NCBI GenBank assembly: GCA_015490605.1
Contig: WFXL01000037.1
Location: 1-34,177, forward strand
Length of the DNA stretch: 34,177 nt
Direction: 5' to 3'
Source: Rhodospirillales bacterium
GTDB lineage: Bacteria; Pseudomonadota; Alphaproteobacteria; Geminicoccales; Geminicoccaceae
In this document: positions 2,769 to 34,133 of the stretch, piece by piece
How positions within the stretch are numbered: position 1 is the stretch's first letter
Layout of the letters: each line of letters begins with the position of its first letter
Position numbers and translations under genes: made by a program
Notes under the pieces: generated by a model
What the model saw: only the letters and a program-made list of their open reading frames with translations
What the model was told of the DNA's origin: nothing
Databases searched by the model: none

Positions 2769-3628
2769 GCTTGCGCTCCTTTTCGCGCGCTGGCGATGGT
2801 CCGGCGCGTTTCCGCCGGATCGAGGCCGGCGGCCCGTGCGGCGGCCGTGAGGACGGCCTCGGCTTCCGGCCAGTCCAGCCGCCCCTCGCGGCCGCGCGCC
2901 GCGGCCCAGAAGGCGTGGCGGTAGAGGGTGACGTTGCGGGTGCCCGGTCGCGCCCGTGCGAGCTCGGACGCCCGCTCCAGCAGCGCCTCGGTGGTCGCGT
3001 CGATGCGTTCGGCGGGCACGAGGTAACGGACCGTGACCGTCTTCGGCCGCGGCCTCGGCACGATCCGGCGCCGCCAGCGGCGCGGCAGCTCCGCGAGCCC
3101 CTCGTGCGGGTGGCGGATCCAGCGTCGGCGGGGCGTGCGCCGGCCGGTGGGCAGGGTGACGCAGCCGCCGCTGGCCTTGACGTCCAGCCCCGGCGCGAGC
3201 GGCTTTGAAGGGATGCGGTCGACACCCGCCGGCCAGCGAAAGAACAGGTGGCGGCCGCCTGTGGGCGTGGCGGCCTCCGCGGTGGGCGGCAGGCGCCCGA
3301 GCCGGCGCTCCAGATCACGCAGCGCCGCCGCCCCGTCGGCGCCGTGGCCGGCCGCGGTGTCCACGTCCAGCACCAGCACGCCGCTCTCGGGCCCGGTCAC
3401 CAGGGCGAGGGCGGCGTGCGGCCAACGGGCGAGCCAGCGCCGGAGGGTCGCGCGGTCGCCGGACGGCACGGCCCGCTCGGGCCAGCGGCGGATGAGCGGC
3501 ACCTTGTCCGGGCCGACCGGCACCAGCCGCCAGCGGGCGGTCTGGGCGTCGCCGTCCGCACCTGCACCACCCGAGGTTGAGCCCGCATCCGCCGGCGCGG
3601 GCGCGGGCGACTGGCTGTACGGTGTCAC
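2765..3628 (-). CDS. Bifunctional DNA primase/polymerase (prim-pol domain)
   Basis: I chose GTG 3626-3628 because GGGAGGA sits 6-7 nt upstream; the frame extends to 3715 but the extra residues look unlike coding sequence. The 287-residue product begins with a Pro/Ala/Gly-rich stretch of about 30 residues. It then shows prim-pol motifs: VPLIRRWPE near 43, the metal-binding DVD in VLVLDVDT (88-90), TPTGGRHLFF (121-130), and LDVKASGGCVTLP (148-160). The C-terminal third is Arg rich and ends in a helical region like the primase C-terminal domains of phage. It makes primers for element replication together with the overlapping D5 helicase. Confidence 0.88.
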   Translation of the reverse strand: MTPYSQSPAPAPADAGSTSGGAGADGDAQTARWRLVPVGPDKVPLIRRWPERAVPSGDRATLRRWLARWPHAALALVTGPESGVLVLDVDTAAGHGADGAAALRDLERRLGRLPPTAEAATPTGGRHLFFRWPAGVDRIPSKPLAPGLDVKASGGCVTLPTGRRTPRRRWIRHPHEGLAELPRRWRRRIVPRPRPKTVTVRYLVPAERIDATTEALLERASELARARPGTRNVTLYRHAFWAAARGREGRLDWPEAEAVLTAAARAAGLDPAETRRTIASARKGAQA

Positions 3629-3844
3629 CGGGCGTCCTCCCGTGCGGCCCCACCTCACTGTGGAGCGCGTCAGCGCGCAGTCGAGGTCGAGTTCCGCCGC
3701 CACCGATATTGGCACGACGACCGTCGCCCATGCAACGGCCCGTGTCGGCCGAAAACACTAAAAGCGTGGCATTTTATCAATCTAGAATTCTGGCTTCGCG
3801 ATGGTGATGCTATACATGCCCGCGGAGCACGGAGGAGACGCCCC
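3629..3844. promoter_or_regulatory. Divergent control region of the element
   Basis: These 216 nt separate the leftward replication genes from the rightward recombination/integration genes. The part from 3750 to 3820 is clearly AT-richer than its surroundings. It contains the palindrome AGAATTCT (3784-3791) and an imperfect inverted pair AAAAGC/GCATTTT (about 3760-3775) that could be operators. A phage repressor gene would be expected near such a region but none is encoded here. Confidence 0.5.
3788..3817 (+). promoter_or_regulatory. Putative rightward promoter
   Basis: TTCTGG (3788-3793) and TATACA (3811-3816) are separated by 17 nt. The -10 element is good and the -35 element weak. GGAGGAG at 3831-3837 and the ATG at 3845 follow at suitable distances. 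The overlap of the -35 box with the AGAATTCT palindrome would allow repression. Confidence 0.45.
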
Positions 3845-4129
3845 ATGCATCACAATACTGTGGTGCACACCCGCATTGCATGCATCGACATGACACGCCG
3901 TGACACGCCGGGACACACCCGGAGGCGCCGCGGTGCTCAACCCCCGGTCGTGCAGCCCGGGGCCGCCGTGCGCTTCGCCTGGTGCGGGCGCGCCTGCCGC
4001 GGCGTGGTGCTGCAGGATCTCGGCACGGGCCGCGCTACCGGGCTGCGCCGCTTCCTGATCCGCAGCCGCGACCTGCCCGGCCGCGATCTGGTCCTGCTCT
4101 ACGAACACGAGATCGCGGAGGCGGCATGA
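3845..4129 (+). CDS. Small element protein, unknown function
   Basis: The 94-residue product starts at an ATG behind GGAGGAG, the first gene of the rightward block. The N-terminus is rich in His, Thr and Arg. Residues about 30-90 are more regular, with alternating hydrophobic positions such as AAVRFAWCGRACRGVVLQD and VLLYEHEI, which could be a small beta-barrel. I do not recognise a family. The stop overlaps the next ATG (ATGA), indicating coupling. Confidence 0.6.
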   Translation: MHHNTVVHTRIACIDMTRRDTPGHTRRRRGAQPPVVQPGAAVRFAWCGRACRGVVLQDLGTGRATGLRRFLIRSRDLPGRDLVLLYEHEIAEAA

Positions 4130-4446
4130 GCGGCGTGCCGGTGCCCATGCCCACACCCCACGAGCTGCGCGCCGCCCGCGAACGCAGCCTGTCGGAGGTC
4201 GGCCGAGCCCGTCTGATCGAGCGGCTGTGGCACGGGCTCGGCCACCGCGACGTGCGGGTGTGGGTGGCGCGGGAACACGGACGGCAGGTGGTGCGCTCCA
4301 ACCTGATCAACGGCCTGCCGCCCTCGGCCCTGGGGCTCGCGGAGATGGTGGACTGGCAGGGCGTGGCCGCGCGCCTGCGCGGGCGCCTCGCCGAGGAGGA
4401 ATGGGAACGGCTGGTGCGGGAGCACACGGCATGGAAGGCGGCCTGA
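4126..4446 (+). CDS. Small element protein, unknown function
   Basis: The start ATG overlaps the preceding stop. The 106-residue product is helical and charged, with HELRAARERSLSEVGRARL at 12-30 and a tail ending in RLVREHTAWKAA. No catalytic motif or signal peptide is visible. The nuclease gene starts inside its last codons (16-bp overlap). It may be a DNA-binding or accessory protein of the recombination module, but nothing in the sequence proves this. Confidence 0.6.
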   Translation: MSGVPVPMPTPHELRAARERSLSEVGRARLIERLWHGLGHRDVRVWVAREHGRQVVRSNLINGLPPSALGLAEMVDWQGVAARLRGRLAEEEWERLVREHTAWKAA

Positions 4447-5381
4447 GGATCACGGAACCCGGCCTCTACCGGGACGTGCCTGATGCGGACTACCACGCGG
4501 ATCCGTGTCCCGAGCCGTCGCTCTCCTCGACCCTCGCCAAGGTGCTGCTCTCGCGCTCGCCGCTGCACGCGGCGGTGCGCCACCCCAGGCTCGCGAAGCG
4601 GCAACAGTGCGAGGAGAAGGCGGCCTTCGACCTCGGCCGGGTGGCGCACGCACTGCTGCTGGGCAGGGGTGCGGACTTCGCGGTGATCGACCACGAGGAC
4701 TGGCGCACGAAGGCCGCCCGCGAGGCCCGCGACGAGGCGCGGGAACAGGGGCTCACGCCCATCCTCCGCCCCCAGTTCGAGCAGGCCGAGGCGATGGTGG
4801 CCTCGCTGCGCGACCAGCTTCGGCAGCACGAGTGCGCCGGCGCCTTCGAGGGCGGGCTCGCCGAAGCCACGCTGGTCTGGCGCGAGGAAAACGGCGTCTG
4901 GTGCCGGGCGCGGATCGACTGGATGCCGGATCCGCCGACCGACGGCATCGTGATCTACGACTACAAGACCACCTCCGCCTCGGCCGAGCCCGCGGCCTTC
5001 GGCGGCCGCAACCTCTTTGCCCTCGGCTACGACATCCAGGCGGCCTTCTACCTGCGCGGCATCGGCGCGGTGCTCGGGATCGGGGATGCCCGCCTGCGCT
5101 TCGTGGTGCAGGAGACCGAGGAACCCTTCGCCGCCACGGTGCTGGAGATCGGCCCCGGCTCGCTGGCCATGGCCGGGCGGCAGGTCACGAAGGCCATCGA
5201 GGTGTGGGGCCGGTGTCTGGAGACCGGCATCTGGCCCGCCTATCCGCCCCGCGTCTGCCACGTCGAGGCGCCGGCCTGGCACGAGCACCGGGTGCTCGAT
5301 GCCGAGGCGCGCGAGACCGAGTTCGGCGACGTGTTGGACCAGTACATCGCCGCGTTCGCACCCGGCGGAGAGGCGGCATGA
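4431..5381 (+). CDS. PD-(D/E)XK exonuclease, DUF3799/RecE-like
   Basis: The 316-residue protein opens with GLYRDVPDADYH and SLSSTLAKVLLSRSPLH, as in DUF3799/RecE C-terminal nucleases of phage. Motifs of the RecB-like fold follow in order: GRVAH (His 73), E145 in AEATLVW, D163 in ARIDW, DYK (177-179) in IYDYKTT, and QAAFY with Gln 203. These are the metal-binding and catalytic residues of the family. Partnered with the Sak4-type ATPase two genes further on, it would resect double-stranded ends for annealing-type recombination. Length fits the family. The longer open frame back to 4227 overlaps the previous gene and is not used. Confidence 0.87.
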   Translation: MEGGLRITEPGLYRDVPDADYHADPCPEPSLSSTLAKVLLSRSPLHAAVRHPRLAKRQQCEEKAAFDLGRVAHALLLGRGADFAVIDHEDWRTKAAREARDEAREQGLTPILRPQFEQAEAMVASLRDQLRQHECAGAFEGGLAEATLVWREENGVWCRARIDWMPDPPTDGIVIYDYKTTSASAEPAAFGGRNLFALGYDIQAAFYLRGIGAVLGIGDARLRFVVQETEEPFAATVLEIGPGSLAMAGRQVTKAIEVWGRCLETGIWPAYPPRVCHVEAPAWHEHRVLDAEARETEFGDVLDQYIAAFAPGGEAA

Positions 5382-5692
5382 GCGGCCGCCGCGACTTGGC
5401 GCGTATCTGGCTCGCGCTCGCCTTCCGCCATCTGGATGTCGCCGAGGCGGCCGACCGGACCATGGGCCTGCTGCCGAGCCGACACGTGGCCCTGATGGAT
5501 CTCGCGGCCACCTCCGAGATCGAGGCGCTGGAATGTCTCGTCGAAGCCGCGCGCCACGCCGGCCTGGGCGACAGGCATGTCCGCCGCGTCCTGACCGTGG
5601 CCCTCATGGGCGCGGACTGGGGGTTGGATCCCGGTCGTGCGCGCCGGATGGTGCGGCGGACGGCGCGGCTCCTGTTCCGGGAGGAGCAATGA
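5378..5692 (+). CDS. Small element protein, unknown function
   Basis: The ATG overlaps the nuclease stop (ATGA). The 104-residue product is predicted helical, with LARIWLALAFRHLDVAEAADR at its start and an Arg-rich end (RARRMVRRTARLLFREEQ). Hydrophobic positions are spaced as in amphipathic helices rather than membrane spans. No family recognised. Its place between nuclease and annealing ATPase suggests an accessory of that module. Confidence 0.6.
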   Translation: MSGRRDLARIWLALAFRHLDVAEAADRTMGLLPSRHVALMDLAATSEIEALECLVEAARHAGLGDRHVRRVLTVALMGADWGLDPGRARRMVRRTARLLFREEQ

Positions 5693-6084
5693 CCGCCTTC
5701 GCCATCCGCCACGCCCACACCGGCCTGTTCTACGCCGGGACCACCCCGATGCTCCGGATCACCGTCTGGCGCCGCCGGCCGCGCGACGCTGCGCTGTTCG
5801 CCACCGAGTCCGAGGCGTGGGCGGCGGCGGCCGGCCTCGGCACGGCCCTCGCCGGGGCGGTGGAGGTGGTGCCGGTTCGGGCCCGCGGGCTGGCGCCCAT
5901 GGACGACCTGTTCGAACGGAATGCGGGGGCCGCGGCGTCTCCCACGGCCGGTGGCCGGCACGGCCGCGACGCCCGTCCTGCCTCGCGTCGCGTCCCCCCG
6001 GGTGCTCAGCAGGCGCGACGCAGTGGGTCAATCCGCGCCGCGGGGCAACTGTCTGGCGGCAAGGGCGGGAAGCCGGCGGCATGA
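5689..6084 (+). CDS. Small element protein, unknown function
   Basis: The start ATG lies in the stop of the previous gene, with GGGAGGAG just upstream. The first ~80 of 131 residues look structured (AFAIRHAHTGLFYAG, ESEAWAAAAGLGTAL), of the type seen in short phage proteins. The last ~45 residues are low-complexity Arg/Gly/Ala/Pro and may be disordered. No family recognised. A 66-nt gap without a gene follows. Confidence 0.55.
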   Translation: MTAFAIRHAHTGLFYAGTTPMLRITVWRRRPRDAALFATESEAWAAAAGLGTALAGAVEVVPVRARGLAPMDDLFERNAGAAASPTAGGRHGRDARPASRRVPPGAQQARRSGSIRAAGQLSGGKGGKPAA

Positions 6085-6150
6085 CCGGAGGTCGAGCGGC
6101 GGGCAGGACATCGTTCCTGTCCGCCGCCGCCCACATCGGAGAAACGGGCC

Positions 6151-6390
6151 ATGGATACGGATCGCGTGCTGGACCATGCCGTGCAGATCCGCGCCGCCAT
6201 GGAACGCGCGCGGGCCTGCGTGATCGGGATCCTCGGCGACATGCCGGTCGAGCTGGAGCGCGTCGTCGCGGACGACCGGATCCGGGACGTTCTCGTGAGC
6301 GGCCTCGTGCGGGCGGTAGCGAACGCCCTCGTGCACATCGAGGACGCCGCCGCGCACGCGGAGCACATCGGCAGGGAGCTTTGCCCATGA
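6151..6390 (+). CDS. Small helical element protein, unknown function
   Basis: The 79-residue product starts at ATG behind GGAGA. It is almost entirely helix-forming, with hydrophobic positions spaced in heptads (VLDHAVQIRAAMERARACVI, LVRAVANALVHIEDAAAHAE), suggesting a small helical bundle or oligomer. Its stop overlaps the start of the ATPase gene (ATGA), so the two products are made together and may interact. Confidence 0.6.
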   Translation: MDTDRVLDHAVQIRAAMERARACVIGILGDMPVELERVVADDRIRDVLVSGLVRAVANALVHIEDAAAHAEHIGRELCP

Positions 6391-7460
6391 GCTTCACCTT
6401 CCGTCCCGCCACGCGCGAGAATGCGCGGCTGCTGATCGGTCTCTGCGGCCCCTCGGGCGGCGGCAAGACCCTCTCCGCGCTGCGCCTCGCGACGGGCCTT
6501 GCCGGCGGCGGCGAGATCGTGGTGATCGACACCGAGCGCGGGCGGGCGGCCCAGTACGCCGCCCCGCCCGGCGGCCCGCCCAACCCGCCGGAAAGCTATG
6601 CCTTCCTCGTGGGCGCCTTGGAGCCGCCCTTCACCCCGGCCCGCTACCGCGAGGCCCTGGAGGCCGCCTACGCCCGCGGGCCCGCGGTGGTGATCATCGA
6701 CTCCATGTCCCACGAGTGGGAGGGGCCGGGCGGCATCCTCGAGATGGTGGACCGGATCAAGGCCGAGCGGAAGGTCAACGACTTCGCTGCCTGGGCGAAG
6801 CCCAAGCAGGAGCACCAGAAGCTGGTCAACACGCTGCTCCAGGCCCCCTGCCACCTGGTCCTGTGCATGCGCGCCAAGGAGAAGCGCACGCTGGTGCGGG
6901 ACACCCATGGACGCACCGAGGTGGTGGATGCCGGCTGGGCGCCCATCTGCGAGCCCAACCTCACCTACGAGCTCACCGTCAACATGCTGCTGGGGCCCGT
7001 CGGCAAGGGCGTGCCCACGTTCGACTTCGACCACGGCAAGCTTCCCGCCAACATGAAGGGCCTGTTCCGTGAGGGGGAGCGGATCACCGAGGCCCTCGGC
7101 GAACGCCTTGCGGCGTGGTGTCGTGGATGTGCCGGGCCCGGGGACGTGGAGGAGGGAGCGCGGCAGCCGGCGGCAGAACCGGCCGCCGCGCCTAAGCGCC
7201 GACCGCTCGTCGTCTACACGGCTTCCGGACAGCCGGCCTCCAGTGTCATGCGCGCCGCCGACTGGCTGGAGGCGTACCGGGCCGAGCTCGCACGCACGCC
7301 TGCGGAGCTGCGCGACGCCTTCATGGGGAAGAACCTGGGAACCCTGCGCGACCTCGCCGCTCGGGCCGAACGGAAGGCCCCGCCGGAGCTGCGCGAGGCC
7401 TTCGCCCGAGAGCTGGCCGCGGCCGAGGCGGCGCTGCGGGATGCGGAGGATGCGGCATGA
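6387..7460 (+). CDS. Sak4-type RecA-fold ATPase, single-strand annealing
   Basis: The 357-residue protein has Walker A GPSGGGKT at 21-28, an acidic strand VVIDTERG near 45-52, and Walker B VVIIDS at 101-106. The sequence around it (DSMSHEWEGPGG, then a WAKPKQEHQ-like stretch and LVLCMRAKEK) is typical of AAA_24/Sak4 phage ATPases, which are RecA/Rad51-like and promote annealing. The last ~100 residues after the ATPase core are a Pro/Ala linker and charged helices. With the DUF3799-type nuclease it forms a phage recombination pair. Confidence 0.82.
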   Translation: MSFTFRPATRENARLLIGLCGPSGGGKTLSALRLATGLAGGGEIVVIDTERGRAAQYAAPPGGPPNPPESYAFLVGALEPPFTPARYREALEAAYARGPAVVIIDSMSHEWEGPGGILEMVDRIKAERKVNDFAAWAKPKQEHQKLVNTLLQAPCHLVLCMRAKEKRTLVRDTHGRTEVVDAGWAPICEPNLTYELTVNMLLGPVGKGVPTFDFDHGKLPANMKGLFREGERITEALGERLAAWCRGCAGPGDVEEGARQPAAEPAAAPKRRPLVVYTASGQPASSVMRAADWLEAYRAELARTPAELRDAFMGKNLGTLRDLAARAERKAPPELREAFARELAAAEAALRDAEDAA

Positions 7461-7801
7461 GCGGCGACGTGGTGCTTCGGGCGGCGAAGCGCGCCGTAGG
7501 ACTGGTCGACGAGGACGCCCGCGAGGCCACGCCGGTGGAGGCCATGCTCGCCCATGCCTTCGCCCTGGTCGCGGTGTCGGAGGCGGTGTCGTCGCCCGCG
7601 GAAGACCCCGACTGCGATCCGGCCGATGCGGCGGCTCTCGTCATCCTCGGGGCCGCCACGCAGCTGGGCGGCAGACTGCCGGAGCGCGACGGCCTCGGCT
7701 ATCCCCGCCGGCTCGTCGCCTATCTGGTGGGCCACGCCCTGCGGACCGGCATCATCCACAGCCTGCGCGCGGAGAGGGAACATGAACCGCGAACGGAATG
7801 A
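7457..7801 (+). CDS. Small element protein, unknown function
   Basis: The 114-residue product starts in the stop of the ATPase gene. It is alanine-rich and helical (PVEAMLAHAFALVAVSEAV, ADAAALVILGAATQLG), ending in a basic helix. The hydrophobic stretches are interrupted by charges, so I do not call membrane spans. Family unknown. Confidence 0.55.
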   Translation: MSGDVVLRAAKRAVGLVDEDAREATPVEAMLAHAFALVAVSEAVSSPAEDPDCDPADAAALVILGAATQLGGRLPERDGLGYPRRLVAYLVGHALRTGIIHSLRAEREHEPRTE

Positions 7802-7907
7802 AATGCGGCGGCCGGTCCTCCGCGCCTGGGCCACACCCGCCGGCGCCGCGGTGGTGGTCGAGGACACCCGGGAGGAAGCGGGAGAATGTCCACGCCGCGC
7901 CTGCTGA
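7782..7907 (+). CDS. 41-residue element protein, unknown function
   Basis: The ATG at 7782 has GGAGAGGG a few nt upstream and lies within the end of the preceding gene. The product contains RPVLRAWATPAGAAVVVEDT, a plausible beta strand pair, and its stop lies 22 nt into the excisionase-like gene. Too short for family assignment; support comes from the ribosome binding site and the tight overlap pattern. Confidence 0.4.
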   Translation: MNRERNEMRRPVLRAWATPAGAAVVVEDTREEAGECPRRAC

Positions 7908-8158
7908 CCGAGATCGAGACGGCCCATCTCGCCGGCTTCCGCCGCTTCCGCGACTTCCGGCGGGCCCTGCGCGCGGGACGCTTTCCTCAACCCGACGTTG
8001 AGCTTCCCGACGGGCCGCGGTGGTCCGAGGCGAGTTTAACGCGCTTGCTGGACGCTTCGCCTGGTTCCGGGTCTCATGCCGGCGCGGAGGGAAGCGTGAT
8101 CGAGAGGATGCGTCGCCGTGCGGAAAAAGCCGCGTCATCTCACGACACGGGTCCGTAA
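7886..8158 (+). CDS. Excisionase/AlpA-like DNA-binding protein
   Basis: The 90-residue product has the pattern of small winged-helix excisionases: TPRLLTEIETAHLAGF near the start, RDFRRALRAGRFPQPD in the middle, and RWSEASLTRLLD around 45-57. In that family these form the recognition helix, the wing with 'G.fP.P', and the closing helix. It lies directly upstream of the integrase, whose GTG start it overlaps by 41 nt. It would direct the integrase towards excision and might repress the integrase promoter. The assignment is by pattern and position. Confidence 0.65.
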   Translation: MSTPRLLTEIETAHLAGFRRFRDFRRALRAGRFPQPDVELPDGPRWSEASLTRLLDASPGSGSHAGAEGSVIERMRRRAEKAASSHDTGP

Positions 8159-9197
8159 CGGGCGGATCGCGTACTACTGGCAGCCCTCGGCGAGCCTGAA
8201 GCGCCTCGGCTTTCGTCTGCGCCGGCTTTCCGACGATCCGGCGATCGCATGGCGCGAGGCCGAGGAACTCAATGCCGAGGCCGACCGGTACCGTGAGCTG
8301 GTCGGCACAGATCCAACAGGACACCCAAGACCCGGCACCATCCGGTGGCTCGCGGCGCAATTCAAGTCGCATGACGATTATCTGGCCCTTTCCGAGAGAA
8401 CGCGCGACGACTATGCAAGATTCCTAGATATGATCTGCACCCTGATAGGGGACGAGCGGATTGAAGATATCACGCCACCTGTCGTGGCCGAGATGAAGCG
8501 TCTAGGAAAGGACAAGCCATGGCAGACCAACTATATGCTCCGCGTTTTGCGGTTGCTGTTCAGCTTCGGCATCCGCGAAGGCTACTGCACGACAAATCCT
8601 GCCCGCGGCTTTCGCCAGTTGCGTACACGGCCACGGGAAGCTGTGTGGACGCACGAGCAGGAGAAGCGCTTTCTCGCCGCGTGCGAGGAGATGGGCCGGC
8701 CGTCGGTCGCGCTTGCATACCGGATCGCCATCTGGACGGCGCAGCGGCAGGCGGACGTGCTGCGGCTGTCATGGACGGACTACCACGACGGGGCGCTTCA
8801 TGTGCGGCAGAGCAAGACCGGACGGCCGGTGGTGATTCCCGTCATCGGGCCCCTAGCCGAAGCGCTTGAAGCGGCGCCACGCGTCGCCACGGTGATCGTG
8901 GCGGACGAGCGCGGCCTGCCTTGGAAGGCATACCACTTTCGCCACGTGTTCAAGCGCATCATGCGCGCGGCCGGCATCGAGGGCGTGCGGTTCCAGGATC
9001 TGCGCCGCACCGCCATCGTGCGGCTTGCCGAGGCCGGCTGTACCGTGCCGGAAATCGCCGCCATCAGCGGCCACCAGATCGACTACTGCCAGCGCATCCT
9101 GGAGGTGTACCTGCCGCGCACCCGGCGCCTGGCTGAGCGGGCGGTGGTCAAGCTGGTGCGGAACGAAACCGGTACGCGAGGCCGAGCCGGAGTCTAA
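8118..9197 (+). CDS. Tyrosine recombinase (phage integrase)
   Basis: The start is GTG 8118 behind GAGAGG. The 359-residue protein has an N-terminal arm-binding region (1-75), a core-binding helical domain (75-170) and a C-terminal catalytic domain. Catalytic residues are Arg 210 (WTAQRQADVLRLSW), Lys 233 (RQSKTG), Arg 296 (FQDLRRTA), His 319 (SGHQ) and the nucleophile Tyr 331 (LEVYLPRT). The box II His is Gln 293; substitution at this place is, to my memory, common in this alphaproteobacterial integrase group and need not abolish activity. The gene points at the tRNA-Arg 3' end 48 nt away, which fixes the attachment site. Confidence 0.93.
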   Translation: MRKKPRHLTTRVRNGRIAYYWQPSASLKRLGFRLRRLSDDPAIAWREAEELNAEADRYRELVGTDPTGHPRPGTIRWLAAQFKSHDDYLALSERTRDDYARFLDMICTLIGDERIEDITPPVVAEMKRLGKDKPWQTNYMLRVLRLLFSFGIREGYCTTNPARGFRQLRTRPREAVWTHEQEKRFLAACEEMGRPSVALAYRIAIWTAQRQADVLRLSWTDYHDGALHVRQSKTGRPVVIPVIGPLAEALEAAPRVATVIVADERGLPWKAYHFRHVFKRIMRAAGIEGVRFQDLRRTAIVRLAEAGCTVPEIAAISGHQIDYCQRILEVYLPRTRRLAERAVVKLVRNETGTRGRAGV

Positions 9198-26817: not shown

Positions 26818-27726
26818 TCACGGGCGACCGGCGGCGGACTGGGGTTTTGGCGGCTGGGCGTGCGCCCGCATGGCCTTTTCGCGCCGGGTCCCATCCCCTT
26901 CTCCCAGCAGCCCCGGGCTCGGTGCATCCGGGCGGCGGAAGGGCTGGGTGAGCAGGCGGTCGAGCCGCTGTTCGGCCGGTTCGCGGAAGATCCGCAGCCC
27001 CACCACCATGCCCTCGTGGCCCGCGCGCGGCTGGGCGCGGTAGGTGCCGAACAGCCGGTCCCAGATGGCCAGGGCGAAGCCGAAGTTGCGATGGTGTTCG
27101 TCGGGATGGACGGAATGGTGCACCCGGTGCATGTCGGGGGTGACCACCACCAGCCGCAGCAGCCGGTCGACCCGCGGCGGCAGATGCAGATTGGCGTGGT
27201 TGAAGAGGCTGCTGGCATTGAGCAGCAGTTCGAACAGCACCACCGCCTCGGCCGGTGCTCCCAGGGCCGCCACCACCGCCATCTTGAGCAGCATGGACAG
27301 CAGGATCTCGATGGGATGAAAGCGCACGCCGGTGGTGGTGTCGATCTCGGGATCGGCATGGTGCACCCGATGGAGCCGCCACAGCGCCGGCACCGCATGG
27401 AACAGGACGTGCTGGAGATAGACGGCGAGATCCAGCAGTATGATTGAGGCCACCAGCACAAGCCCGTAGGGCAGATCGAGCCGGTGGAAAAGGCCGAAGC
27501 CGCGGGCTTCGGCCACAAGCGCCACCCCCACCGCCAGCACCGGCAACAACAGCCGCAGCACCAGCGCGTCCACCACCACCAGCCCGAGATTGCCGCTCCA
27601 GCGCAGCAGTCGCGGCAGCTCCCGCCGGCGCCGTGGGGCCAGCGCTTCGGCTATGGCCATCGCCGCCAGCACGCCCAGGAACACGGTGGTGCGTATGAGC
27701 GCTTCCTGCTGGACCAGCAGATCCAT
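26818..27726 (-). CDS. Sterol desaturase/fatty acid hydroxylase-family membrane protein
   Basis: I chose ATG 27724-27726, which follows GGAGAGGCGGG. The 302-residue protein has four to five membrane segments and the histidine clusters of the di-iron FA_hydroxylase family: HVLFH, HRVHHAD, NHANLH and HRVHHSVHPDEHHRNFG. These would bind two irons at the membrane face and oxidise a lipid chain. The last ~40 residues are hydrophilic, Arg/Pro-rich. Substrate unknown; its position upstream of fabD/fabG supports a lipid role. Confidence 0.88.
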   Translation of the reverse strand: MDLLVQQEALIRTTVFLGVLAAMAIAEALAPRRRRELPRLLRWSGNLGLVVVDALVLRLLLPVLAVGVALVAEARGFGLFHRLDLPYGLVLVASIILLDLAVYLQHVLFHAVPALWRLHRVHHADPEIDTTTGVRFHPIEILLSMLLKMAVVAALGAPAEAVVLFELLLNASSLFNHANLHLPPRVDRLLRLVVVTPDMHRVHHSVHPDEHHRNFGFALAIWDRLFGTYRAQPRAGHEGMVVGLRIFREPAEQRLDRLLTQPFRRPDAPSPGLLGEGDGTRREKAMRAHAQPPKPQSAAGRP

Positions 27727-27752
27727 CCCGCCTCTCCGCGCGATCACGGCGA

Positions 27753-27781
27753 GATATCGGCCGCCTGCCGCCGCCGGCCAA
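27753..27781 (-). promoter_or_regulatory. Putative promoter of the hydroxylase-family gene
   Basis: On the minus strand TTGGCC (27776-27781) precedes GATATC (27753-27758) with 17 nt between, 26 nt before the ATG. Both boxes are partial matches. The rest of the 132-nt divergent gap to dctP shows only the dctP ribosome binding site. Confidence 0.3.
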
Positions 27782-27858
27782 GGGGCGCCCTTGCCACCCC
27801 GCGGGCGCTCCGCTTGAATGACGGCGCTCACCGAAAGTCGGGAAGGAGGAGCTCCACC

Positions 27859-28872
27859 ATGACCAGGCTCACGCGTCGCACGCTGCTCACCGGGACCGCC
27901 GCGGTGGGGGTGCTCGCCCTGGCCGGTGTCCGCGTTGCCCGCGGCGAGATCACCATCAAGTTCAGCCACGTGGTCTCCCCCAAGGGCCATCCCAAGGGCG
28001 AGGCGGCGCAGCTGTTCGCCGACTGTGCCAACGAGAAGCTCGCCGGCAAGGCCAAGGTCGAGGTCTATCCCAACTCGCAGCTCTATAACGACAACAAGGT
28101 TCTCGAGGCGATGCTGCTGGGCGACGTGCAGTTCGCCGCGCCGTCGCTGTCGAAGTTCGAACGTTTCACCAAGAAGTACCGCATCTTCGACCTGCCGTTC
28201 CTGTTCGAGAACGAAGAGGCGGTGCTATGCTTCATGCGCAGCAGCACCGGCCAGAAGCTGCTCCGTGCCATGGATGACAAGGGGCTGCTCGGTCTGGGCT
28301 ACTGGATGAACGGCATGAAGCAGCTCTCGGCCAACAAGCCGTTGCTGGTGCCGGAGGACGCCAAGGGCCTCAAGTTCCGCATCCAGCAGTCGGACGTGCT
28401 GGCGGCACAGTTCGAGGCGCTCGGTGCGGTGCCGCAGAAGATGGCCTTCGCCGAAGTCTACGGCGCCCTGCAGCAGGGGGTGGTGGACGGCCAGGAGAAC
28501 ACCTACACTAACATCTACACCAAGAAGTTCTACGAGGTCCAGGACGGCCTCACCGAGACCAACCACGGCGTCATCGCCTATCTGGTGGTCACCAGCCGCG
28601 AATGGTGGGAGGGGTTGCCGGAAGACATCCGCAGCGTCCTTGAGGAGTGCATGGCCAAGGCCACTGATTATGCCAACAGCAAGGCCTCGGAGCTCAACCA
28701 GCAGGCCAAGCAGAAGCTCATCGAGGCGGGCGTGACCATCCGCACCCTCACGCCCGAACAGCGTCAGCAGTGGGTCGAGGTGATGAAGCCGGTGTGGGCC
28801 AAGTTCGAGGCTGACATCGGCCGCGATGTGATCGAGGCGGCGCTGGCGGCCAATCAGGGCAAGTGCGACTGA
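27859..28872 (+). CDS. dctP: TRAP transporter substrate-binding protein, DctP family
   Basis: The start ATG is preceded by GGAAGGAGGAG. The 337-residue protein has a signal peptide with a Tat-like TRRTLLTG motif, a hydrophobic stretch, and a probable cleavage after VARG near residue 30. The mature part shows the DctP pattern (KFSHVVSPKGHPKGEAA, EVYPNSQLYNDN, KGLKFRIQQSDV with the conserved carboxylate-binding Arg, and ENTYTNIYTKKFYEVQ). These closely resemble C4-dicarboxylate binders, so malate, succinate or fumarate is likely. It is followed by dctQ and dctM. Confidence 0.92.
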   Translation: MTRLTRRTLLTGTAAVGVLALAGVRVARGEITIKFSHVVSPKGHPKGEAAQLFADCANEKLAGKAKVEVYPNSQLYNDNKVLEAMLLGDVQFAAPSLSKFERFTKKYRIFDLPFLFENEEAVLCFMRSSTGQKLLRAMDDKGLLGLGYWMNGMKQLSANKPLLVPEDAKGLKFRIQQSDVLAAQFEALGAVPQKMAFAEVYGALQQGVVDGQENTYTNIYTKKFYEVQDGLTETNHGVIAYLVVTSREWWEGLPEDIRSVLEECMAKATDYANSKASELNQQAKQKLIEAGVTIRTLTPEQRQQWVEVMKPVWAKFEADIGRDVIEAALAANQGKCD

Positions 28873-28885
28873 TCCCGACGCAGGT

Positions 28886-28907
28886 GGGGCCGGCTCTGGC
28901 CGGCCCC
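28886..28907 (+). other. Intercistronic hairpin between dctP and dctQ
   Basis: GGGGCCGG (28886-28893) pairs with CCGGCCCC (28900-28907) around a 6-nt loop. No T-run follows. Such hairpins after the binding-protein gene are known to protect or partly terminate transcripts, so that binding protein exceeds permease. Confidence 0.6.
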
Positions 28908-28930
28908 GCGGCCGTGGGAGGGAGGATGCC

Positions 28931-29491
28931 GTGGAAACGCGGCCGGAACGGCGGCGCCTGGCCGCCTGGGTGGAGGCGCTGGAGCAGACCGTGATCGCCG
29001 TGCTGTTCGCGGCGATGGTGCTGGTCACCTTCGTCCAGGTGGTGCTGCGCTATCTGTTCAACGCCGGATTCCTGTGGGCGCTGGAGTTCACCACCTTCGC
29101 CTTTGCCTGGCTGGTGCTTTTCGGTGTTGCCTATGGCGTCAAGCACGCCGTCCATCTCGGTGTGGACGCCTTCGTGCGGCTGTTTCCCACCCCGGTCCAG
29201 CGGATCTTCGCGCTGCTGGCGGTGCTGGCGGGCCTCGCCTACGCTGGCATCATGCTCGCCGGTGCCTGGGAATATGTCAGCAAGCTCTACCGCATCGGCA
29301 TTCATGCGACGGACCTGCCGATTCCCCGCTGGATCCCCTACAGCATCCTGGTGGTGGGGATGGTGCTGATGATCCTGCGGCTGCTGCAGGCGGGCTTCGA
29401 GATCATCCAGGGCCGCCGCACCAGCCTGCTGGCGGATGAGGCCCGCGGCACCATCCGCGAGCTGCTGGGCGAAGAGGGGCAGGGGCGCTGA
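28931..29491 (+). CDS. dctQ: TRAP transporter small permease, DctQ family
   Basis: The start is GTG 28931 behind GGAGGGAGGA. The 186-residue protein has four membrane helices: about 18-40, 50-70, 90-115 and 130-155. The segment FVQVVLRYLFNAGFLWALEF near 32-51 matches the conserved Q..R...N....E signature of DctQ. It ends 3 nt before the dctM start. Confidence 0.92.
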   Translation: METRPERRRLAAWVEALEQTVIAVLFAAMVLVTFVQVVLRYLFNAGFLWALEFTTFAFAWLVLFGVAYGVKHAVHLGVDAFVRLFPTPVQRIFALLAVLAGLAYAGIMLAGAWEYVSKLYRIGIHATDLPIPRWIPYSILVVGMVLMILRLLQAGFEIIQGRRTSLLADEARGTIRELLGEEGQGR

Positions 29492-29494
29492 CCC

Positions 29495-31045
29495 ATGGCC
29501 ATCGCCACCCTCTTCGGTCTTCTGTTCCTGCTGCTGCTGATCGGCACGCCCATCGCCATCGCCCTGGGGCTCAGCAGCGTCGTCACCATTCTTCTGTTTT
29601 CCGACGACAGCCTCGCCTCCATCGCGCTCAAACTGTTTGAGACGATGGAGCACTATACGCTCCTGGCGATTCCCTTCTTCATCCTGGGCTCGGCCTTCCT
29701 GACCACCGGCGGCGTGGCCCGCCGGCTGATCCGTTTTGCGATTGCCAGCGTCGGCCATCTCCGCGGCGGCCTCGCCATGGCCGGGGTGCTGGCGTGCATG
29801 CTGTTCGCCGCCGTCTCCGGCTCCTCGCCGGCCACGGTGGTGGCCATCGGTTCGATCGCCATCGCCGGCATGGTGCGGGCCGGCTACCGGCTGGATTTTG
29901 CCGCCGGCGTCATCTGCACCGCCGGCACGCTGGGGATTCTGATCCCGCCCTCCATCGTCATGGTGGTCTATGCCGCCGCCACCGACCAGTCGGTCGGGCG
30001 GCTGTTTCTCGCCGGCGTGATCCCGGGCATCGTCGCCGGGCTCATGCTCATGTTCACCATCTGGTGGCGCGCCCGCCGGCTCGACCTGCCGCGCCAGCCG
30101 CGGGTTTCCTGGCGTGCCTGGTTCGAGGGGCTGGGCGAGTCCATCTGGGGGCTGCTGCTGATCATTATCATCATGGGCGGCATCTATGGCGGCATCTTCA
30201 CCCCCACCGAAGCGGCCGCCGTCTCCGCCGTCTATGCCTTCCTCATCGCCCATTTCGTCTATCGCGACATGGGGCCGCTCGCCGCCGCCGGCGACGGCAT
30301 GCCCAGCACCCACGGCATCGCCCTCTTGGCGCTGTTGGCGCTGCTGGCGCTCGTGGCCGGCTGGAGCAGCGGTGTCTTCGCACCGACGGCCGCCGCCGGC
30401 GGTCTGCTGGCGCTGGCTGCGGTGGTGCTCGCCTACGGGCTACTGGCGCCGCGGGCCGGCATCGAGCACCCCTATGGCGCACTCGCGCGTTCGCTCGGGG
30501 AGTTCCTGCTCCATCTCGGCCCCGCCCTGGTGCACCGCGACACCCGGCGGGTGATGGTGGAGGCGGGGCGCACCACCATCATGCTGATGTTCATCATCGC
30601 CAATGCGATGATCTTCGCCCACGTGCTCACCACCGAGCGGATTCCCCACACCATCACCCAGTGGATCGTGAGCCAGGGTTTCTCCTGGTGGACGTTCCTG
30701 ATCGTGGTCAACCTGCTGCTGCTGATCGCCGGCAACTTCATGGAACCCTCGGCGATCCTGCTGATCATGGCGCCAATCCTGTTCCCCATCGCCCTGGAGC
30801 TGGGGATCGACCCGATCCACCTGGGAATCGTCATGGTGGTCAACATGGAGGTGGGGATGATCACGCCGCCGGTGGGGCTCAATCTCTTCGTCACCTCGGG
30901 GATCACCGGCATGAGCGTGATGGAGGTGGTGCGCGCTGCCCTGCCTTGGCTCATGGTGCTGCTCGCCTTTCTGGCCCTGGTCACCTACGTGCCACCGCTC
31001 TCCACCCTGCTGCCCGACCTCCTCTACGGCCCGCTGCGGATCTAG
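29495..31045 (+). CDS. dctM: TRAP transporter large permease, DctM family, enlarged
   Basis: The 516-residue membrane protein carries the substrate and ion path. DctM signatures are present: LLAIPFFILGSAFLTTGG near 57-73, AAVSGSSPATVVAIG near 105-119, GTLGILIPPSIVMVVYA near 144-160, GIFTPTEAAAVSAVYA near 233-248, and GMITPPVGLNLFV near 447-459. It is about 90 residues longer than the usual ~426; the extra part lies near 258-345 and adds two hydrophobic spans (about 274-290 and 298-317). Confidence 0.94.
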   Translation: MAIATLFGLLFLLLLIGTPIAIALGLSSVVTILLFSDDSLASIALKLFETMEHYTLLAIPFFILGSAFLTTGGVARRLIRFAIASVGHLRGGLAMAGVLACMLFAAVSGSSPATVVAIGSIAIAGMVRAGYRLDFAAGVICTAGTLGILIPPSIVMVVYAAATDQSVGRLFLAGVIPGIVAGLMLMFTIWWRARRLDLPRQPRVSWRAWFEGLGESIWGLLLIIIIMGGIYGGIFTPTEAAAVSAVYAFLIAHFVYRDMGPLAAAGDGMPSTHGIALLALLALLALVAGWSSGVFAPTAAAGGLLALAAVVLAYGLLAPRAGIEHPYGALARSLGEFLLHLGPALVHRDTRRVMVEAGRTTIMLMFIIANAMIFAHVLTTERIPHTITQWIVSQGFSWWTFLIVVNLLLLIAGNFMEPSAILLIMAPILFPIALELGIDPIHLGIVMVVNMEVGMITPPVGLNLFVTSGITGMSVMEVVRAALPWLMVLLAFLALVTYVPPLSTLLPDLLYGPLRI

Positions 31046-31115: not shown

Positions 31116-31146
31116 TTGACCTTCCCCCTGCGGGAAGGTGGAGACT
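31116..31146 (+). promoter_or_regulatory. CueR/HmrR-type copper-responsive promoter and operator
   Basis: TTGACC (31116-31121) and the -10-like GAGACT (31141-31146) are separated by 19 nt, the long spacer that MerR-family activators correct by twisting DNA. A perfect inverted repeat, ACCTTCCC (31119-31126) and GGGAAGGT (31132-31139), lies in the spacer exactly as in CueR/HmrR sites. The subunit II gene starts 40 nt further on. Two GTCAATTC repeats (31081-31088, 31093-31100) lie just upstream. The regulator gene is not in the window. Confidence 0.75.
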
Positions 31147-31185
31147 GCCGTCTCGCCAATAAGACCCGGAAGGGGAGGGGTACTC

Positions 31186-31800
31186 ATGTACGAAGCCCTG
31201 GGACTCGACGCCCAGCGAACCATCCTGATCGCCATCATGTTGGCGCTCGGGGTAGCGGGCATCGCCGCCCTGTTCGTCGGCCTCTTCGCTCGCACCAAGA
31301 TACGATTACCCTACAGCGCCGAAGTGGGCTTTGTGGCCCTGCTGGTGGGGTTGCTGATCTATGGCGATGCCACCAGCACCTCCACCTACCGCGCCTATGA
31401 GGCGCTGCTGCCGCGGGAGGGCGAGGTCGGTGTCGCCGACGAGGCGCCCGCCGGTCAGTTCGACAAGAATGTGCGGGTGCTGGCCTTCCAGTGGGGCTTC
31501 CTGTTCTTCGACGGCGACAAGGCCCTGCGCAATGTGGTGCAGGTGCCGCCCGGCGCGCGGGTGCTGTTCCGCATCGGTGCAAGCGATGTGATCCACGGCT
31601 TCAATGTGCCTGCCGCCAGCATCACCGCCGAGCTGGAGCCGGGCGAGACCCGCTATGTCTGGCTGCGGGCGCCGGATCGTCCGGGCAAGTACCTGATCCA
31701 GTGCCTCAACTACTGCGGCCTTGGCCATGCGCAGATGAAGGCATGGCTGGTGGTGGGCGAACCCGCCGAGGAGGATCACGACGGGGCTGAGGAGGCGTGA
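31186..31800 (+). CDS. Heme-copper oxidase subunit II with CuA site
   Basis: I use ATG 31186, preceded by AGGGGAGGGG, rather than an upstream in-frame start. The 204-residue protein has two membrane segments (about 12-34 and 46-60), then a periplasmic cupredoxin domain. The CuA ligands are His 137 (DVIHGF), Cys 173, Cys 177, His 181 and Met 184 in CLNYCGLGHAQM. FQWGFLF near 101-107 is the aromatic electron-entry region. It takes electrons to subunit I, encoded 3 nt downstream. It lacks the C-terminal cytochrome c domain. Confidence 0.9.
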   Translation: MYEALGLDAQRTILIAIMLALGVAGIAALFVGLFARTKIRLPYSAEVGFVALLVGLLIYGDATSTSTYRAYEALLPREGEVGVADEAPAGQFDKNVRVLAFQWGFLFFDGDKALRNVVQVPPGARVLFRIGASDVIHGFNVPAASITAELEPGETRYVWLRAPDRPGKYLIQCLNYCGLGHAQMKAWLVVGEPAEEDHDGAEEA

Positions 31801-31803
31801 ACC

Positions 31804-33387
31804 ATGGTCGCTGCGACCCACGACAACAACCGGGACATCGATGCTGCCCGCTGGGATCCGAAGGATCTTCTGGCGGAACTCGACCTGCGGCGGTTGCTGT
31901 TCTCCGACGACTACCGCATGATCGCCCTCAAGGGGCTGCTCCTGTCGCTGTCCATGCTGGCCCTGGCCGGGACCTTCGGCCTCACCTTCCGGGCCGAACT
32001 CACCGCGCCCGACATCCAGTTCTTTGGCGCGCGGCCTTACATGAACCTCATGACTCTCCACGGGATGCTGATGGTCTTCGGCTTTCTCATCCCGTTCGTG
32101 ATCTCGCTATGCTATTATGTCATGCCGCGCGTGCTGGGCACCGAGCGCCTCGAATGGCCGGCACTGGCCCACGCCAGCTGGTGGCTGCTGGTGGTGGCGG
32201 CGGTGCTGCTGATCATCGGCCGGCCCGACTTCACCTGGACCTTCTATGCCCCCATGAGCCTGCGCGTGGGCGGTCCGCTGGTGTGGATGGGCTATCTCGC
32301 CATCGTGCTGGTGGCCATTTCCGAGTTCCTGGCGGGGCTGGTGCTGCTGCGCAGCGCGCTGGCCTGGCGCGGAAGCTGGCGCGATTGGCCGCTCATGGGC
32401 TGGGGCATGATGACCGAGGGGGTGATGCTGCTGTTCTCGACCCCGGCCCTGGGGCTGGTGGGCCTGTTGCTGTTCACCGATTGGCTCACCCTCACGGCGG
32501 TGTTCGATCCCTCCCGCGGTGGCAGCACCACCACCTTCCTGTGGCTGTTCTGGTTCTATGGTCATCCGGCGGTCTATCTGCCGCTGGTGCCGGCCATCGC
32601 CCTGATCTACACGCTGCTGCCGCGCTTTCTCGCCCGGCCGCTGTGGAGCAAGATCTCGGCCATCATCGCCTTTCTTACCCTGTTGGTGCTCTCCTTCGGC
32701 GTGTTTCACCACCATTTCCAGCCGGTGGTGAATGAGCACACCTGGGTGCAGCGGGCATTCCAGATCCTCACGCTGCTGATCTTTATCCCCAGCGCACTGC
32801 ATGTGTTCAACTGGGTGGCCAGCCTGCTGGAGGGGCCGATCCCACGGGAAGGCCGTGAGGCGATTCCGTTCAAATTCATCATCGGGTCGATCTTCTTCAT
32901 CATCATCGGCGGCGTGGTTGGATATATCAACGCCCAGATCGCCATCAATACGGAGTTCATTCATAATACCTATTGGATCCCGGGGCACTTCCATGCCATG
33001 TTCCTCGGGTTCTGCGCGCAGGTGGGAATGGCAGCGCTATATTACCTCTATCCATACTTCACGGGACGGATGTACAACCAGCGCCTCGCCAACCTGCACT
33101 TCTGGCTGTGGCAGGTGGGCATCTTCGGCCAGGTGATGACCATGTACGCCCTCGGCTATGCCTTCTTCCCGCGGTGGGTGGTGGACTATCTGCCCATCCC
33201 CCTGTGGAGCTCGCTGCAGTTCTGGCTCACCGTCAGCGTGACCCTGGTGGGCCTGGGTTTCGTGGTGCTGGCCTGGAACCTCCTGTGGAGCTATCGCCGC
33301 GGTGAGGTGGTGACCCGGGATCCGTGGGCCATCAAGCCCGCGGCCGAGGCGGCGCGTCCCGAGGCGGTTCCGGCGGCGGGAGAGTGA
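31804..33387 (+). CDS. Heme-copper oxidase subunit I
   Basis: The 527-residue protein has about twelve membrane helices. Heme and copper ligands are His 86 (TLHGMLM; low-spin heme), His 254 with crosslink Tyr 258 in GHPAVY (CuB), the pair among His 302-304 in FHHHFQP (CuB), and His 395/His 397 in PGHFHAM (high-spin and low-spin hemes). The Tyr supports O2 rather than NO reduction. The Glu of the usual HPEVY motif, which gates the D channel in A1-type oxidases, is Ala 256, and no YS motif replaces it (FYGHPAVY), so proton uptake probably uses another route, as in B-type enzymes. Heme type cannot be told. Confidence 0.93.
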   Translation: MVAATHDNNRDIDAARWDPKDLLAELDLRRLLFSDDYRMIALKGLLLSLSMLALAGTFGLTFRAELTAPDIQFFGARPYMNLMTLHGMLMVFGFLIPFVISLCYYVMPRVLGTERLEWPALAHASWWLLVVAAVLLIIGRPDFTWTFYAPMSLRVGGPLVWMGYLAIVLVAISEFLAGLVLLRSALAWRGSWRDWPLMGWGMMTEGVMLLFSTPALGLVGLLLFTDWLTLTAVFDPSRGGSTTTFLWLFWFYGHPAVYLPLVPAIALIYTLLPRFLARPLWSKISAIIAFLTLLVLSFGVFHHHFQPVVNEHTWVQRAFQILTLLIFIPSALHVFNWVASLLEGPIPREGREAIPFKFIIGSIFFIIIGGVVGYINAQIAINTEFIHNTYWIPGHFHAMFLGFCAQVGMAALYYLYPYFTGRMYNQRLANLHFWLWQVGIFGQVMTMYALGYAFFPRWVVDYLPIPLWSSLQFWLTVSVTLVGLGFVVLAWNLLWSYRRGEVVTRDPWAIKPAAEAARPEAVPAAGE

Positions 33388-33389
33388 CC

Positions 33390-34076
33390 ATGATCCTGCG
33401 CGTCTGGCTCGGTTTCACCGTGGTGTTGCTGGTGGTGGCGTGGTATCTGGCGCTGCCGGCATCCCCCGCCCCCTATCAGGCGAGTCCGACGAGCTTCGTC
33501 GGTGCCTTCGTCGAGCGCGGGCTCGTGCCCAAGCCCGACCATTATGTGGAGGATGAAGAGCTGGAGCACGAGGTGTTCGAGATCCCGGCGGAAGATGCCG
33601 CCCGCGTGCCGGAAGGGGCCGGCGAGGGGCTCGCGGTGTTGCTGCAGGGGCGTGAGGGCGAGGTGCGCGACAAGCTCGCCACGCTCCAGCTGGACCGCAC
33701 CATTGAGCTCGCCATGGAGGAGTGGGGTTTCGACCCCGGCCGGGTGCAGCTCAAGGCCGGCGAGACGGTGGCGCTGGTGATCGAGAATACCGGCAACATC
33801 CCCCACGAATTCATGATCATGGCCGATGCCGCCATGAAGGGGGTGAACTACCGGCTTGCCCGCGCCGACTGGAACCTCACCGAACATGAGGCGGTGGCGG
33901 AACAGAGCTTCCTGCTGCCGGGCGAGCGCATGGTGATGGTGGTGCGGGCGGACAAGCCCGGCATGTGGATGTTCATGTGCATGTTCCCCTACCACATGCA
34001 GCTGGGCATGATGGGCATGCTCATGGCCGCGGTTGAGGAAGGTGGCATGCCCATGGGCGGTGATATGAAGATGTAG
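33390..34076 (+). CDS. Membrane-anchored blue-copper (cupredoxin) protein
   Basis: The 228-residue protein has an N-terminal membrane anchor (about 4-22), an acidic, probably flexible linker (about 50-100) and a C-terminal cupredoxin domain (about 104-213). Type 1 copper ligands are His 139 (IPHEF), Cys 197, His 202 and Met 207, in CMFPYHMQLGM. The C-x4-H-x4-M spacing is that of rusticyanin/sulfocyanin, which feed terminal oxidases. It starts 2 nt after the oxidase subunit I stop. The tail is Met-rich (MPMGGDMKM), as in copper-handling proteins. It may donate electrons to CuA or deliver copper; both are inference. Confidence 0.85.
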   Translation: MILRVWLGFTVVLLVVAWYLALPASPAPYQASPTSFVGAFVERGLVPKPDHYVEDEELEHEVFEIPAEDAARVPEGAGEGLAVLLQGREGEVRDKLATLQLDRTIELAMEEWGFDPGRVQLKAGETVALVIENTGNIPHEFMIMADAAMKGVNYRLARADWNLTEHEAVAEQSFLLPGERMVMVVRADKPGMWMFMCMFPYHMQLGMMGMLMAAVEEGGMPMGGDMKM

Positions 34077-34101
34077 CGCGGTGGCTCTGCCGTGACCGAG
34101 C

Positions 34102-34133
34102 GGGGCCGGGCCCGCCGCCCGGCCCCGTCCTTT
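34102..34133 (+). terminator. Hairpin terminator after the oxidase unit
   Basis: GGGGCCGGGC (34102-34111) pairs perfectly with GCCCGGCCCC (34117-34126) around 5 nt, followed by GTCCTTT. The T-run is short, but the very stable stem 26 nt after the last stop suits transcription termination. Confidence 0.65.

Follow-up and report, generated by a model that had tools for sequence, protein, structure and literature searches.

Could a haem-copper oxidase belong to the CueR copper regulon and, if so, what would it do there? The question is raised by a unit of three genes in Rhodospirillales bacterium GCA_015490605.1 (Geminicoccaceae; genome G000 in what follows), which encode a CuA-bearing oxidase subunit II, a haem-copper oxidase subunit I and a membrane-anchored cupredoxin, and which lie behind a CueR/HmrR-type operator. 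The window that we analysed is the entire contig on which they stand (C37, WFXL01000037.1; 34,177 nt). An earlier sequence-only reading of this DNA had proposed direct CueR-type control of the oxidase, with two options for its function, namely a respiratory enzyme built when copper is plentiful or a copper-detoxifying one. The proposed control is well supported by what we describe below; of the two options, both still hypothetical, copper defence is the better supported. We suggest, with a probability of about one half, that the unit is a CueR-induced copper-defence oxidase, in which electrons would pass from periplasmic Cu(I) to the cupredoxin, on to CuA and finally to O2.

The promoter comprises a -35 element read from the sequence (TTGACC, 31116..31121, plus strand), a 19-nt spacer (31122-31140) and a -10 element (GAGACT, 31141..31146), all on the same strand. 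The operator, ACCTTCCC-CCTGC-GGGAAGGT, recognised by pattern scan and from the published consensus (PMC1526738), consists of two perfect 8-bp arms at 31119..31139 (plus strand); it overlaps the -35 element, fills the spacer and stands 67 nt ahead of the three-gene unit. The CueR signal as described by Permina et al. (2006; PMC1526738) is ACCTTCCC-(5)-TGGAAGGT with a 19-bp spacer. Both the full CueR/HmrR ‘architecture’ and the perfect inverted repeat of the sequence-only reading are therefore present, with the palindrome ACCTTCC-N7-GGAAGGT matched without mismatch between -35 and -10, and nowhere else in the window. By chance, as estimated with a first-order Markov model of the window, the exact palindrome would arise 2e-7 times in 200 bp and, with both strands counted, 0.005 times in a genome; two were observed in G000. 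The -10 element matches TATAAT at 3/6 positions and is weak on sigma-70 standards; its 19-nt spacing is the same as that of the copA-cueR promoter on contig C150, and the TTGACC hexamer overlapping the operator is found again in the copA, cytochrome c and beta-propeller promoters of G000.

The regulator itself is encoded in this genome, where the sequence-only reading had proposed to look for a cueR/hmrR gene. CueR is present in one clear copy (139 aa; TIGR02044 equivalog, 169.6 bits against a cut-off of 147.4), directly 3' of the copper P-type ATPase gene copA on C150, and the resulting copA-cueR operon has a promoter of its own (TTGACC-19-CAGATG) with a one-mismatch operator, box TTGACCTTCCCTCTGCTGGAG. 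When five related genomes were scanned for TTGACCTTCC-N7-GGAA with at most one mismatch, 27 matches were obtained against one for the reversed pattern used as control, a few of the 27 being one palindrome counted on both strands. The genes downstream, identified by reading frames for part of these matches, are copA (in G000, G001, G002, G003 and G024), copB-like ATPase genes (G001 and G002), copZ and a Met-rich small protein gene (both in G002), a beta-propeller gene and a monohaem cytochrome c gene (each in G000 and G002) and the oxidase unit (G000 and G001). No good CueR box was seen, in the stretches scanned, at the two multicopper oxidase genes that were found in G000.

The box is thus a marker of copper genes in this genus, and among these we count the oxidase unit. 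In its operator sequence, 19-bp spacer and copA-cueR operon the system resembles the known CueR/HmrR regulon (copA, cueO, copZ). Direct CueR-type control of the oxidase-unit promoter is, in our view, well supported, since the published signature is matched, cueR lies in a copA-cueR operon with its own box, and the box marks copper genes across the regulon. We found no description of a haem-copper oxidase under CueR in the literature searched, the coverage of which was limited and is not proof of absence.

Other genes of this regulon merit a brief description. The boxed monohaem cytochrome c is membrane-anchored (G000, C150:4141-4581, loci L082 and L139; G002, C13:59042-59481), occurs in members of the genus with or without the oxidase, and resembles the candidate cytochromes that had been predicted as CueR regulon members in Vibrio (PMC1526738). 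We considered this cytochrome, which has an exact operator (C150:4558), as a dedicated electron donor and rejected it: G002 has it but no oxidase, and in G001, which bears the oxidase, it was not found, so that we treat it as a separate regulon member. The boxed beta-propeller (YncE/lactonase-like) is secreted and has a Met/His-rich stretch (G000, C134:7592, minus strand, L078; G002, C39:109615). Elsewhere on C134 (10391-14736, L017) a multicopper oxidase gene lies behind a MerR-family regulator, with a His-rich heavy-metal P-type ATPase adjoining on the opposite strand; the regulator scores below every metal-specific cut-off (best CueR, 112 against 147 bits), and this may be a second metal-response cluster, of uncertain metal specificity.

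How far does the operator travel with the unit? Ahead of an orthologue of 88% identity (G001, JALSGW010000255, L054) we find TTGACCTTCCCCCTGGGGTAACGTT at 58-61 nt from the start, although the neighbouring gene on that side is another one (glutamine synthetase, glnA-like, rather than the TRAP permease gene dctM of the window), and 0/400 Markov simulations of 200 bp matched as well. The 76% orthologue (G024, L055), whose contig starts 93 nt upstream, has a degenerate three-mismatch version without a good -35, again unequalled in 400 simulations. At nine more distant loci (59-68% identity), with upstream sequence available up to 1 kb, the operator is absent, and the upstream regions of the distant orthologues yielded neither a common palindrome nor a CopR/CusR-like box. 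The expectation that the operator would precede orthologous units therefore holds for the closest relative, perhaps in degraded form for the next, and no further. Because it is missing ahead of all the more distant orthologues tested, CueR control is probably lineage-specific, a trait of this genus and perhaps its neighbours, and not of the whole oxidase family.

As the sequence-only reading had it, the three copper-protein genes form one unit, with COX2, COX1 and cupredoxin domains identified in turn. All are on the plus strand and, of the earlier description that they ‘overlap or nearly touch’, the second half is correct: the gaps are 3 and 2 nt, without overlap. An upstream GTG had been taken as the first start; the likely start is instead the ATG at 31186, after GGGGAGGGG, with a purine-rich ribosome-binding site, aaggggaggggt, ahead of it (31170..31181, plus strand).

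The first product is a CuA-bearing subunit II of 204 aa (31186..31800, plus strand; COX2 Pfam, 40.2 bits, over cut-off) with two N-terminal hydrophobic segments. Its CuA ligands are kept, the His in DVIHGFN and the C-x3-C-x3-H-x2-M set in QCLNYCGLGHAQM, and are invariant in 12 orthologues. The second is a subunit I of 527 aa (31804..33387, plus strand; COX1 Pfam, 300 bits) in which, by alignment, H86, H254, H303, H304, H395 and H397, together with the catalytic-type Tyr258 of the HPxxY motif, are kept in 12/12 orthologues. In the same twelve the D-channel Asp is lost, Ala (A256) takes the Glu278 position and His (H333) that of the K-channel Lys; Tyr269 is invariant, at a position that we equate with that of a K-path Tyr in Thermus ba3. 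Some CuA-type nitric oxide (NO) reductases likewise lack the canonical pumping channels. Since all six haem/Cu ligands and the catalytic Tyr are kept, the sequence argues for an O2 reductase and not an NO reductase; in related oxidases it is the loss of that Tyr that gives ground to doubt O2 reductase function (PMC6431628).

Subunit I shares with the family A oxidases (aa3, caa3) its fold, six His ligands, HPxxY Tyr and partner CuA subunit. An AlphaFold2 model (pLDDT 76) finds its best matches in aa3/caa3 subunit I, with a TM-score of about 0.8. It differs from them in its identity of only about 30%, in the missing D-channel Asp, Glu278 and K-channel Lys (invariantly His), in the absence of a subunit III and in forming a separate clade, in which the 12 orthologues group together on a long stem (1.47; SH-aLRT 99), away from the A-type sequences. 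This tree sets the clade against A-type rows and not against B-type or NO reductase families, and the branch of one outgroup row is very long; the placement among the haem-copper families is accordingly provisional. The unit represents an extra oxidase in G000, where C63 carries a canonical aa3 and C154 a cbb3-like subunit I. A coxB-cox1 pair on the Halorubrum salinarum plasmid pHAR02 (NZ_CP053943.1, 1-7341; L123) lies between heavy-metal and copper-translocating P-type ATPases, and its subunit I is also without the K-channel Lys; this is possibly a second, independent copper-linked oxidase, from an archaeon.

The third product is a membrane-anchored cupredoxin of 228 aa (33390..34076, plus strand; Cupredoxin_1/Cu-oxidase_2), with one predicted membrane helix (residues 2-21) followed by a beta domain, invariant type-1 ligands (H139, C197, H202 and M207) and a Met-rich tail. 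A ‘CopI-like’ segment has local similarity to NF051440 (44 bits against an NCBIfam CopI cut-off of 280). CopI, a copper-tolerance cupredoxin, is copper-induced, periplasmic and encoded near copA; the window cupredoxin differs in scoring far below its cut-off, in being anchored and in its tie to an oxidase. Among solved structures its fold comes closest to those of auracyanins and of AcoP from Acidithiobacillus ferrooxidans, AcoP being a match by fold only, since the 60 best sequence (profile) hits in the PDB do not include it. A CusF_Ec domain scoring above the Pfam cut-off forms the C-terminal end of the cupredoxin at three orthologous loci (L059, L061 and L062), and other orthologues carry long Met-rich inserts. 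According to a review (PMC7558416), CusF acts in the extrusion of copper and not in the biogenesis of cuproproteins, and a role in copper defence is therefore favoured over one in cuproprotein assembly.

The unit is rare, being found in 3/385 sampled genomes of the class, 1/398 of the phylum and 3/31 of the family (G000 counted). A collection of genome contigs gave 11 orthologous loci, from alpha- and betaproteobacterial metagenome-assembled genomes, and a search of plasmids returned no orthologue, only oxidases of <35% identity. The order CuA-oxidase-cupredoxin is kept at every orthologous locus with enough sequence. Subunit III is missing from the window unit, and from the region 3' of the unit in those relatives with sequence beyond it. 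In a betaproteobacterium (L059) two multicopper oxidases and a CusF gene stand upstream of the unit and another CusF downstream, and at L060 a small DUF2946-like gene, below the Pfam cut-off, precedes it. The distant units, which have no CueR box, still look copper-linked, because of their Met-rich inserts, the CusF fusions in three lineages and the one unit among multicopper oxidase and CusF genes. In an alphaproteobacterium (G037; L063, 1-8637) the unit comes directly after the genes for F1 ATP synthase (atp) and a small gene with a Met/Cys-rich product.

The closest precedent known to us for this arrangement and its copper link is AcoP-CoxBA, that is CoxB, CoxA and AcoP of the A. ferrooxidans rus operon, in which a CuA subunit, a haem-copper subunit I and a membrane-anchored cupredoxin are likewise encoded together, and AcoP shares the H-C-H-M ligands and the C-x4-8-H-x4-M spacing. 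The comparison is one of gene content and of cupredoxin ligands and fold. AcoP is tightly bound to the rus-operon cytochrome oxidase and has cytochrome c as a further partner; copper raises both AcoP and the rus genes in A. ferrooxidans, and AcoP has been implicated in copper resistance (PMC4059628, PMC7463520, PMC5328820). In contrast to the rus operon, the window unit has a CueR promoter, relatives of it carry CusF fusions and Met-rich inserts, and there is no subunit III; neither the window unit nor any of the orthologous loci inspected has rusticyanin or Cyc2.

Synthesising these observations, we propose the following model as the most likely. A rise in cytoplasmic Cu(I) would be sensed by CueR, encoded behind copA, which would then activate the 19-nt-spacer promoter at 31116-31146 much as it would that of copA. 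The three products would form one membrane complex, the anchored type-1 cupredoxin joining the CuA subunit and the divergent haem-copper subunit, and the cupredoxin (which in relatives bears Met-rich or CusF domains) would take electrons from periplasmic Cu(I), for example that exported by CopA. These would travel via CuA to the haem/CuB site, where O2 would be reduced to water, leaving the less toxic Cu(II). This job is done elsewhere by CueO-type enzymes: the likeness to the periplasmic multicopper oxidases CueO, PcoA and CutO lies in the proposed use of O2, under copper control, to turn Cu(I) into Cu(II) (PMC7558416), and the difference in an unrelated architecture, those enzymes being soluble multicopper oxidases and this one a haem-copper oxidase of the membrane, with CuA and with its cupredoxin as a protein apart. 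CueR control within the genus, the composition of the complex, an intact O2-reduction site and a recurrent copper context are each supported at sequence level; that the three proteins assemble together, and that the oxidase pumps few protons or none, we infer. More tentative, and in our estimate somewhat short of an even chance, is the proposition that Cu(I) itself is the physiological electron donor, which would make this a CueR-switched cuprous oxidase of the membrane, composed of a ‘channel-poor’ oxidase subunit, a CuA subunit and an anchored cupredoxin.

Several points weigh against the copper-defence model. The operator is confined to the closest relatives, as described above, and the window's own cupredoxin has neither the Met-rich insert nor the CusF domain of its orthologues. 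A cupredoxin can equally accept electrons from cytochrome c, and multicopper oxidases are already encoded in the genome. The lost canonical channels are compatible with another proton path, via the invariant Tyr269 and His333. Finally, the proposed role is deduced from sequence.

In the main rival, which we hold to be unlikely, though by no means negligible, the unit is a back-up respiratory oxidase that replaces an aa3/cbb3 chain damaged by copper, conserving energy with electrons drawn from cytochrome c or the bc1 complex through its own cupredoxin, so that copper is the signal and not the substrate. The O2-reduction site and CuA are complete, its closest architectural precedent is a respiratory complex in which AcoP binds both cytochrome c and the oxidase (PMC4059628), and the G000 CueR regulon includes a monohaem cytochrome c gene. 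That gene, however, does not share the distribution of the oxidase in G001 and G002; the canonical D- and K-channel residues are missing in 12/12 and there is no subunit III; and the protein by which electrons enter bears Met-rich and CusF domains, a sign that copper is its ligand or substrate.

Fainter still is the chance that the main task of the cupredoxin, like that proposed for AcoP and CopI, is to bind or carry copper in the periplasm, with the oxidase a client or ‘sink’ for the surplus and catalysis secondary. The CopI-like segment (44 bits) fits such buffering or delivery, CusF is a Cu(I) chaperone, and AcoP, itself copper-induced, raises copper tolerance when expressed in E. coli (PMC7463520). 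Yet the redox-type ligand sets are invariant in all three proteins, the O2 chemistry is intact, and a haem-copper oxidase would be a costly sink for three copper atoms. We give little credence to an incidental palindrome ahead of a unit that is constitutive or otherwise regulated: the weak -10 element and the distant orthologues, upstream of which no operator was found, speak for it, but the chance expectation for the promoter stretch, the retention of the operator in the 88% orthologue next to a different gene, and the box upstream of copper genes elsewhere in the genus speak against it. Least probable of all is a new kind of copper-co-induced NO reductase, which membership of the haem-copper superfamily with CuA and without canonical pumping channels would allow, and which we rejected on the invariant Tyr258 of HPxxY (12/12), the residue whose loss raises doubt about O2 reduction in related oxidases (PMC6431628).

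The remaining features of the contig can be given briefly. A G+C hairpin of 12 bp with a poor T tail (34100..34128, plus strand; z -1.8) just 3' of the last gene is a possible, if weak, candidate for the end of the transcript; the terminator scan listed none after the last gene, and the view downstream extends to the 101 nt before C37 ends. Further upstream, a D5-like primase/helicase (1407-2765, minus strand), an AAA protein (5637-7457) and a phage integrase (8118-9194) mark 1407-9197 as the remnant of a prophage or integrative element. TRAP transporter genes occupy 27484-31045; their DctP has a 160-aa N-terminal extension ahead of the solute-binding domain, and the large permease DctM is matched in two separate stretches, suggesting an insert.

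On the prevailing view, haem-copper oxidases are users and victims of copper, and CueR is a regulator of export and of multicopper oxidases. If the copper-defence model is true, an oxidase driven by the copper ‘alarm’, with a cupredoxin that can be fused to a Cu(I) chaperone, would unite respiration with the detoxification of copper in a single enzyme. The rise of the AcoP/rus oxidase genes of acidophiles under copper would then be explained as well, and the unit would provide a natural example of O2 reduction by an oxidase in which the canonical proton channels are missing. Should Cu(I) prove to be the donor, the unit would represent a third solution to the detoxification of periplasmic Cu(I), beside multicopper oxidases and efflux.

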